A stretch of DNA of 64,000 nt from an uncultured Pseudodesulfovibrio sp. (lineage in GTDB: Bacteria; Desulfobacterota; Desulfovibrionia; Desulfovibrionales; Desulfovibrionaceae), in assembly GCF_963664965.1 (NCBI RefSeq), contig NZ_OY761823.1, positions 2,250,001-2,314,000 of the forward strand, read 5' to 3'. Of this stretch, positions 56,039-56,290 are shown piece after piece. Every line of letters begins with the position of its first letter. Positions within the stretch are counted from its first letter, which is position 1. The position numbers were made by a program, and so were the translations under genes. The notes under the pieces were generated by a model. It had not been told where the DNA came from and searched no databases. It was given only the letters and a program-made list of their open reading frames with translations.

Positions 56039-56080
56039 CCTTTCATCCTCCTTGAAGGGCTATGATTGACCAGTGGATTG

Positions 56081-56170
56081 CAAAATAAAAAAACCACGGT
56101 CTCGGAAGCCCGTGGTTTCGTCTGTTTTTCTTCTACCAATGCTATGCCACGAGCTTCCTATTGAAAGCTC
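56081..56170 (-). promoter_or_regulatory. Phenylalanine-type transcription attenuator upstream of paaK
   Basis: Read on the minus strand. Segment 1 GAGCTTT (56170-56164) can pair with AAGCTC inside segment 2. Segment 2 GGAAGCTCGTGG (56158-56147) can pair over 12 bp, one G-T, with segment 3 CCACGGGCTTCC (56115-56104). Segment 3 within AAACCACGG (56118-56110) also pairs with segment 4 CCGTGGTTT (56099-56091) to form a terminator. Segment 1 lies within the last codons of a Phe-rich short frame. The three mutually exclusive pairings match the classical trp/phe attenuator design. Confidence 0.8.
56087..56118 (-). terminator. Intrinsic terminator in the paaK leader
   Basis: 9-bp stem AAACCACGG/CCGTGGTTT with a 10-nt loop, followed on the minus strand by seven T, A, four T. 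It lies about 50 nt before the paaK start with no minus-strand gene upstream, which argues for a regulatory role. Confidence 0.88.
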
Positions 56171-56211
56171 ATAAAAAAGAAAAAGCTGTGCATGGTAAGG
56201 TTTTTTTGCAT
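56158..56211 (-). CDS. Candidate Phe-rich leader peptide of the paaK operon
   Basis: A 17-codon frame reading MQKNLTMHSFFFFMSFQ then TAG, or 11 codons if it starts at the internal ATG at 56193. Four consecutive Phe codons lie at 56184-56173 and a fifth at 56166-56164. The stop overlaps the first base of segment 2 of the attenuator. Weak point: no clear Shine-Dalgarno is seen before either ATG. A poor TTGACG (56247-56242)/TGCAAT pair would start transcription almost at the first ATG, so a leaderless start is possible. Confidence 0.65.
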   Translation of the reverse strand: MQKNLTMHSFFFFMSFQ

Positions 56212-56290
56212 AACGGGAAGATTGCACAATGTTTTTTGTGGCGTCAAGCGGTTTGTCTCGCGGAAAGCTGTTCGAATACAGCGAGTCGCT

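Follow-up and report, generated by a model that had tools for sequence, protein, structure and literature searches.

Phe leader attenuators of enterobacteria control pheA and pheST, and the aryl acid route of phenylacetate assimilation is a pathway of methanogens. The direction in which paaK-ACT-ior modules run in anaerobes is usually guessed. For trpL of Sinorhizobium meliloti (rnTrpL/peTrpL), the accessible text of PMC7298713 places the 5' end of the attenuator RNA at the ATG of the leader ORF. A putative attenuator, taken from Merino's database, is listed for the aroA'-aroB'-pheA-aroF-tyrA-trp supraoperon of Desulfovibrio vulgaris in Table 7 of PMC1173090, and the accessible part of PMC5343134 adds nothing further on Desulfovibrio attenuators. 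Synthesis of Phe from phenylacetate in the rumen is mentioned in the available portion of PMC7356843. Among the titles and starts of abstracts listed in our search of the open literature (open-licence PMC articles only), none describes paaK as the target of an attenuator; the kind of attenuator itself is known.

We analyzed a 64,000-nucleotide stretch (hereafter ‘the window’) of a Pseudodesulfovibrio genome of 3.87 Mb, designated G000. On its minus strand, a leader sits between a divergent upstream gene and a gene for a phenylacetate-CoA ligase, paaK, which is followed by a gene for an ACT-domain protein (paaK-ACT; Table 1). Under our folding model, this leader is a genuine, conserved and genus-wide Phe attenuator, predicted to be leaderless. 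The reading that we favor, with a probability of roughly 85%, is that of a ribosome-mediated transcription attenuator that senses charged tRNA-Phe on a leaderless transcript, with paaK-ACT most likely serving biosynthesis.

Table 1. Leader, promoter and gene features at the paaK-ACT locus (positions are those of the window).
Feature	Position	Strand	Basis or observation
-35 element, TTGACG	56242..56247	(-)	TTGAC 35–37 bases before the ATG in 31/31 genus leaders and in L298
-10 element, CAATCT	56219..56224	(-)	Poor sigma-70 match but conserved (GGCAaTcT); consensus of 29 promoters
Leader ORF, MQKNLTMHSFFFFMSFQ + TAG	56158..56211	(-)	Read from sequence; frame conserved; predicted leaderless
Segment 1, ATGAGCTTTC (codons M S F)	56163..56172	(-)	Partner of segment 2
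Segment 2, GGAAGCTCGTGG	56147..56158	(-)	1:2 and 2:3 pairings
Segment 3 in the 2:3 antiterminator form, CCACGGGCTTCC	56104..56115	(-)	-24.1 kcal/mol; 89.5% of cells paired
3:4 terminator hairpin	56091..56118	(-)	Folding; hairpin and T run in 31/31 genus leaders
T7 tract of terminator	56087..56093	(-)	Sequence
Shine-Dalgarno of paaK, AAGGAGG	56047..56053	(-)	Sequence
paaK, phenylacetate-CoA ligase, 434 aa	54734..56038	(-)	TIGR02155 630.4 bits; PDB 2y27 E 2.5e-154
ACT-domain pair protein (ACT_8), 143 aa	54278..54709	(-)	PF19571 E 9.2e-29

The initial annotation had described a short frame with a run of Phe codons and a TAG stop, and its coordinates are borne out by the sequence: the frame opens with an ATG at 56211, contains a second, nested in-frame ATG at 56193 and closes with the TAG at 56160-56158. 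The leader ORF is short and rich in the codons of the regulated amino acid, with Phe accounting for 5 of the 17 residues of its peptide (codons 10–13 and 16). The three pairings that had been claimed for the RNA are all present as well, namely a 1:2 helix (56170-56164 with 56157-56151), a 2:3 helix of 12 pairs, one of them G-U (56158-56147 with 56115-56104), and a 3:4 helix followed by the T7 tract (56118-56110 with 56099-56091). A consensus scan reported no terminator-like site on the minus strand; the loop of this terminator is longer than that scan allows.

PaaK matches the whole TIGR02155 profile at a score short of the equivalog cut-off of 646.3 bits, and the name paaK is used here to denote a close relative. 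The paaK and ACT genes are 24 bases apart. An ACT gene adjoins paaK in 70 of 110 loci from the family, and the 38 loci that lack it include none from genera g1, g7, g13 and g28.

Those 110 loci, all with upstream DNA, were drawn from 149 family genomes, and a further 80 loci came from named contigs. A covariance model trained on 14 leaders matched 35 of the 36 genus genomes (the one that it missed, G157, is 81% complete); at least 14 of the matched genomes contain a training sequence, leaving 17 of the 31 leaders read as the independent part. We examined loci for 32 of the 35 matched genomes (G153, G158 and G167 were left out), one of which, L298, was read separately (MKKLFSLHAFFFTSPY, spacing 36) and stands outside the counts of frame, Phe codons and promoter spacing in 31 leaders. 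In all 32 loci the leader is followed by paaK, at a distance of 151–189 bases for 29 of the 31 placed leaders and of 150 and 199 bases for the other two. The frame, the promoter spacing and the terminator (hairpin and T run) are found in every one of the 31 leaders checked. Codon 10 specifies Phe in 29 of them (17 with TTC and 12 with TTT) and Ser in the other two, and 23 of the 31 distinct leaders contain at least three Phe in codons 8–14. The leader of G091 has a single Phe (MHNPCNRHDFWSTSLR), and those of G072, G004, G046, G152, G163 and G171 have one to three. A test based on third-base changes inside the Phe runs was discarded as circular, and a second match of the model in the window's genome, at 369114 (E 0.02), was rejected as a terminator-like stretch after an unrelated gene.

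Outside the genus, Phe leaders at the same spacing precede paaK in five of eight loci of g7 (for example MFNHDFFTFFFFFFFKTEI), all three of g13 and two of three of g28, with loci that share identical last 150 bases counted once in this survey. In g29 the TTGAC is kept, with an ATG at that spacing in five of eight loci and no run of three Phe. The TTGAC of g9, g25 and g41 (17 loci) lies 65–86 bases before paaK, which leaves no room behind it for such a leader. Beyond g7, g13 and g28, a Phe leader before paaK was not recognized in the other genera sampled, where control of paaK may therefore be different. Phe-rich frames that lack this promoter spacing also occur in a few AT-rich genera (L189, L193). 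By eye, the leader frame also seems to survive at two g7 loci (L025, L026) with ATC or ATT in place of the ATG and without a clear terminator; these leaders have probably decayed.

We compared the predicted helices with chance. A 150-nt stretch of the leader region folds at -40.6 kcal/mol (z -3.21; none of 200 shuffles was as low), and the 2:3 duplex of the window, at -24.1 kcal/mol against -9.4±2.2 in shuffles, was equaled by none of 500. On both strands of the 64 kb, the leader (listed from its two ATGs) is the sole ATG frame of 8–40 codons that contains FFF. In an alignment of 14 leaders (A2), the 2:3 helix is paired in 89.5% of cells, as compared to at most 47.2% when slid, and the 1:2 and 3:4 helices together in 92.4%, as compared to at most 48.0%. 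Two leaders, L012 and L014, deviate in their frame and in segment 2 and were for this reason omitted from A2; both were kept in a shuffle test of 26 leaders, and their genomes in the frame and Phe-codon counts. Few pairs have changed on both sides, and shuffles often match the count (199 of 500 in the case of 2:3, 111 of 500 in that of 1:2 plus 3:4). The covariation score was seldom matched (10 and 3 of 500, respectively), and covariation beyond pairing is modest.

Across the 26 leaders, the 2:3 duplex was matched by at most 18 of 500 shuffles in 17, while nine do not clearly beat their shuffles. Those nine comprise four genus members and all of the g13 and g28 leaders that were fetched. Mutually exclusive antiterminator and terminator structures are predicted strongly in the window and weakly in 9 of 26 leaders. 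Within the genus, the expectation that relatives would conserve both the Phe codons and the alternative helices was borne out; three other genera have Phe leaders at the same spacing, and none was recognized in the rest of the genera sampled. Where the duplex is weakest among genus members (G072, G171, G004 and G152), codons 8–14 include just one or two Phe, as if sensor and antiterminator were decaying together; the association between few Phe codons and a weak duplex (Fisher p 0.026, Mann-Whitney p 0.22, in 31 distinct leaders uncorrected for kinship) is suggestive only.

We modeled the effect of a translating ribosome by freeing the RNA from base 41, 44, 47 or 50 onward when codon 10, 11, 12 or 13, respectively, occupies the A site. 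In RNA made before segment 4, a stall at codons 10–13 allows all 12 bases of segment 3 to pair upstream (-20.3 kcal/mol), as compared to 7 of 12 with the ribosome at codon 16 (-8.4) and 6 of 12 with the ribosome at the stop codon (-3.7). When no ribosome is present, segments 1 and 2 fold into a long hairpin and segment 3 has no upstream partner (-23.0). In this footprint and folding model, the position of the ribosome at the control codons or at the stop selects the state, and the two states differ in the manner that had been proposed. The initial annotation had also supposed that the stalled ribosome covers segment 1 and thereby permits 2:3 to form. The 2:3 helix does form in the fold; the earliest stall, however, leaves most of segment 1 free, and covering it is therefore not essential in this calculation. 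For one other leader (L035), the upstream pairing of segment 3 is the same in either of the two ribosome states. At full length and at equilibrium, the terminator of the window dominates whatever the state of the ribosome (P(3:4) 0.90–0.91), and antitermination must therefore be kinetic and decided during transcription. The choice is likewise made during transcription in the classical attenuation model.

The position of the promoter bears on how the leader might be translated. TTGAC precedes the ATG by 36 bases in 29 of the 31 genus leaders, by 35 in one and by 37 in one, and by 35–38 in ten leaders from three other genera; the consensus of the 29 promoters with an offset of 36 is AAcCcCTTGACGc.a...gGaACATGGGGCAaTcTt.Cg.cTATG. 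The leader ATG lies approximately 7 bases downstream of the -10 element, and we predict from this arrangement that transcription should begin at the ATG, making the leader leaderless. The lack of a visible Shine-Dalgarno had been regarded as the weak point of the attenuator reading. The fixed spacing puts the start codon where the transcript should begin and so would explain that absence. The nested ATG at 56193 is not a general feature of genus leaders. A consensus scan of the minus strand of the window returned no sigma-70-like promoter.

The switch might operate as follows. RNA polymerase, judging from the promoter spacing, would initiate on the A of the leader ATG or immediately beside it, and a ribosome, needing no Shine-Dalgarno, would bind the AUG at the 5' terminus and then meet Phe codons 10–13 and 16. 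If Phe-tRNA were scarce, the ribosome would stall on codons 10–13 and break the 5' part of the 1:2 hairpin; segment 2, thus freed, would pair with segment 3 while segment 4 was still to be transcribed, and polymerase would enter paaK-ACT. If Phe-tRNA were plentiful, a ribosome at the stop codon would mask the greater part of segment 2, and the 3:4 terminator would form. With no ribosome, the long 1:2 hairpin would also favor termination. Conservation in the genus and the predicted helices both support the original proposal that paaK-ACT is turned on when charged tRNA-Phe is scarce, presumably through read-through of the terminator. PaaK would then make phenylacetyl-CoA from phenylacetate, reductive carboxylation by the only IorA-type oxidoreductase that the genome encodes would give phenylpyruvate, and transamination would yield Phe, which the ACT protein may sense.

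Weak matches of the covariance model pointed to further leaders upstream of genes for ADH synthase (TIGR01949), the first enzyme of the alternative shikimate route, with which de novo aromatic synthesis begins. Two of the copies in G000 are preceded, each at a spacing of 37, by leaders predicted to be leaderless: a Phe leader, MMHNISARFFFFFSFFRNACGIGVH, before the copy at 2850642, and MNITTTLPAYFSNFYFGYWFTRACGSGECAL before the copy that heads the aromatic/trp operon (1745880). Their terminators fold at -26.9 and -27.8 and their antiterminator duplexes, as values without a shuffle control, at -19.2 and -22.8. No such leader was found upstream of the third copy (L247). At the first of these loci (L320, G000:C1:2849800-2858000), where the ADH synthase is at 843, the Phe leader lies approximately 174 bases ahead of it and has a strong terminator; among frames of at least 150 aa, there is no close gene behind that synthase. 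In the second (L321, G000:C1:1731500-1748000), the leader upstream of 14381 (minus strand) is a mixed Phe/Tyr/Trp one, and the part of its peptide that reads RACGSG coincides with an RNA segment that pairs in the antiterminator. The genus gave 57 ADH-synthase matches, of which 30 were examined (one, L243, is badly placed); the leader is mixed aromatic in 19 of these, Phe in 7 and neither in 4.

Similar frames precede other biosynthetic genes. In 13 of 14 genus genomes (L255-L268), a TrpB2-like gene has a conserved frame like MKTPISYTYFCGRGWRNVKRPDS, with leaderless spacing, approximately 264–296 bases upstream; no TrpB2 above the cut-off was found in G000. A Trp-rich leader with leaderless spacing and a terminator (MKKITCNCFWWCWRHSK) is present near position 620 of L224 (G013:C11:146200-149000), where the next gene is TrpB2-like by eye, and in a small-genome genus the leader MNNTMHNQATFNSFYFSYYYGESACGYGYCV and a terminator precede an ADH-synthase-like gene (L220, G039:C1:2058700-2061500). 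Approximately 215 bases before ilvB2 is a Val-rich frame (L333-L343; for example MLRVENSISIIPASLTVAGVCVVVDVVVGGVHRDAP), and in seven of the nine loci read AAAGGAA stands before its ATG with about 6–10 bases between; this Shine-Dalgarno-like site suggests that not every such frame in this genus is leaderless. We found no leaderless frame upstream of leuA (11 loci), and only one doubtful GTG frame upstream of ilvB1 (1 of 11 loci).

All 21 genus genomes gave a single IorA match (20 above the cut-off), which in G000 is unlinked to paaK. No aromatic leader was found in the 450 bases before that match at any of 20 loci, and the second enzyme of the presumed route is therefore not co-controlled in this way. 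In distant relatives, 9 of the 21 loci examined (of 80) have iorB as the upstream neighbor of paaK, at 12–24 bases in five and at 30–166 in four.

Three other explanations deserve consideration. In one, the hairpin would simply be a terminator holding transcription at a low and constant level, and the short frame would be incidental. The four genus members that keep promoter and terminator alongside a weak 2:3 duplex and few Phe codons are what it would predict; yet the 2:3 duplex of the window is unmatched among its 500 shuffles, Phe occupies codon 10 in 29 of 31 leaders, and the leader is the only FFF frame of its size in 64 kb, all of which make this explanation very improbable. We also regard as decidedly unlikely a conventional leader, transcribed from further upstream and translated from a weak or remote site or from the nested ATG at 56193. 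Against it stand the offset of 35–37 in 31 of 31 genus leaders (and of 35–38 in the ten from three genera) and the nested ATG, which is not a general feature of the leaders; the poor -10 element, the promoter scan and the AAAGGAA of the ilvB2 frame in the same genus would all agree with it.

A third possibility retains the same attenuator and assigns paaK-ACT to the breakdown of phenylacetate or Phe. PaaK is best known as the first enzyme of phenylacetate degradation, and IOR enzymes run oxidatively in peptide-fermenting archaea. However, a switch opened by Phe starvation suits supply, the usual role of ACT domains is amino acid sensing, and the Phe leaders detected elsewhere in the genome precede ADH synthase; breakdown therefore appears rather unlikely. 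The biosynthetic role that had been suggested for paaK-ACT, in contrast, gains support from those same ADH-synthase leaders and from iorB upstream of paaK in distant relatives. In these sulfate reducers the module most likely leads from phenylacetate through phenylacetyl-CoA and phenylpyruvate to Phe, and a Phe switch of the same kind as that at the de novo entry point would be genetic evidence for it. More tentatively, and with somewhat less than even confidence, we suggest that leaderless attenuators might govern a three-operon aromatic regulon (Phe/Tyr/Trp for the aromatic/trp operon, and Phe for both the second ADH synthase and paaK-ACT), dividing Phe supply between de novo synthesis and the salvage of environmental phenylacetate, and that the leaderless leader RNAs, once released, may work in trans like that of S. 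meliloti.

Attenuation on leaderless transcripts can be put to the test in a compact system at this locus, for which the ilvB2 frame with its Shine-Dalgarno-like site provides an internal contrast. It shares with the enterobacterial Phe leaders a Phe-codon leader, mutually exclusive helices and an intrinsic terminator before the operon, and differs from them in having no Shine-Dalgarno and in its target, a phenylacetate-CoA ligase with an ACT protein. The window leader scores below the 55-bit gathering score of the Rfam Phe_leader family (RF01859; 18.2 bits, E 1.3), and at gathering score Rfam had no match in the paaK leader, L320 or L321. The aryl acid route likewise combines an aryl-CoA ligase with IOR, and the available portion of PMC7356843 describes no attenuation for it. 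The D. vulgaris supraoperon is of the same operon kind as that behind the L321 leader; the term ‘leader peptide’ is absent from PMC1173090, the accessible text of which names neither a leaderless start nor paaK. The S. meliloti trpL attenuator senses Trp rather than Phe, belongs to an alphaproteobacterium and yields an RNA and a peptide that act in trans; an ATG at the RNA 5' end is stated for trpL and predicted for the paaK leader.
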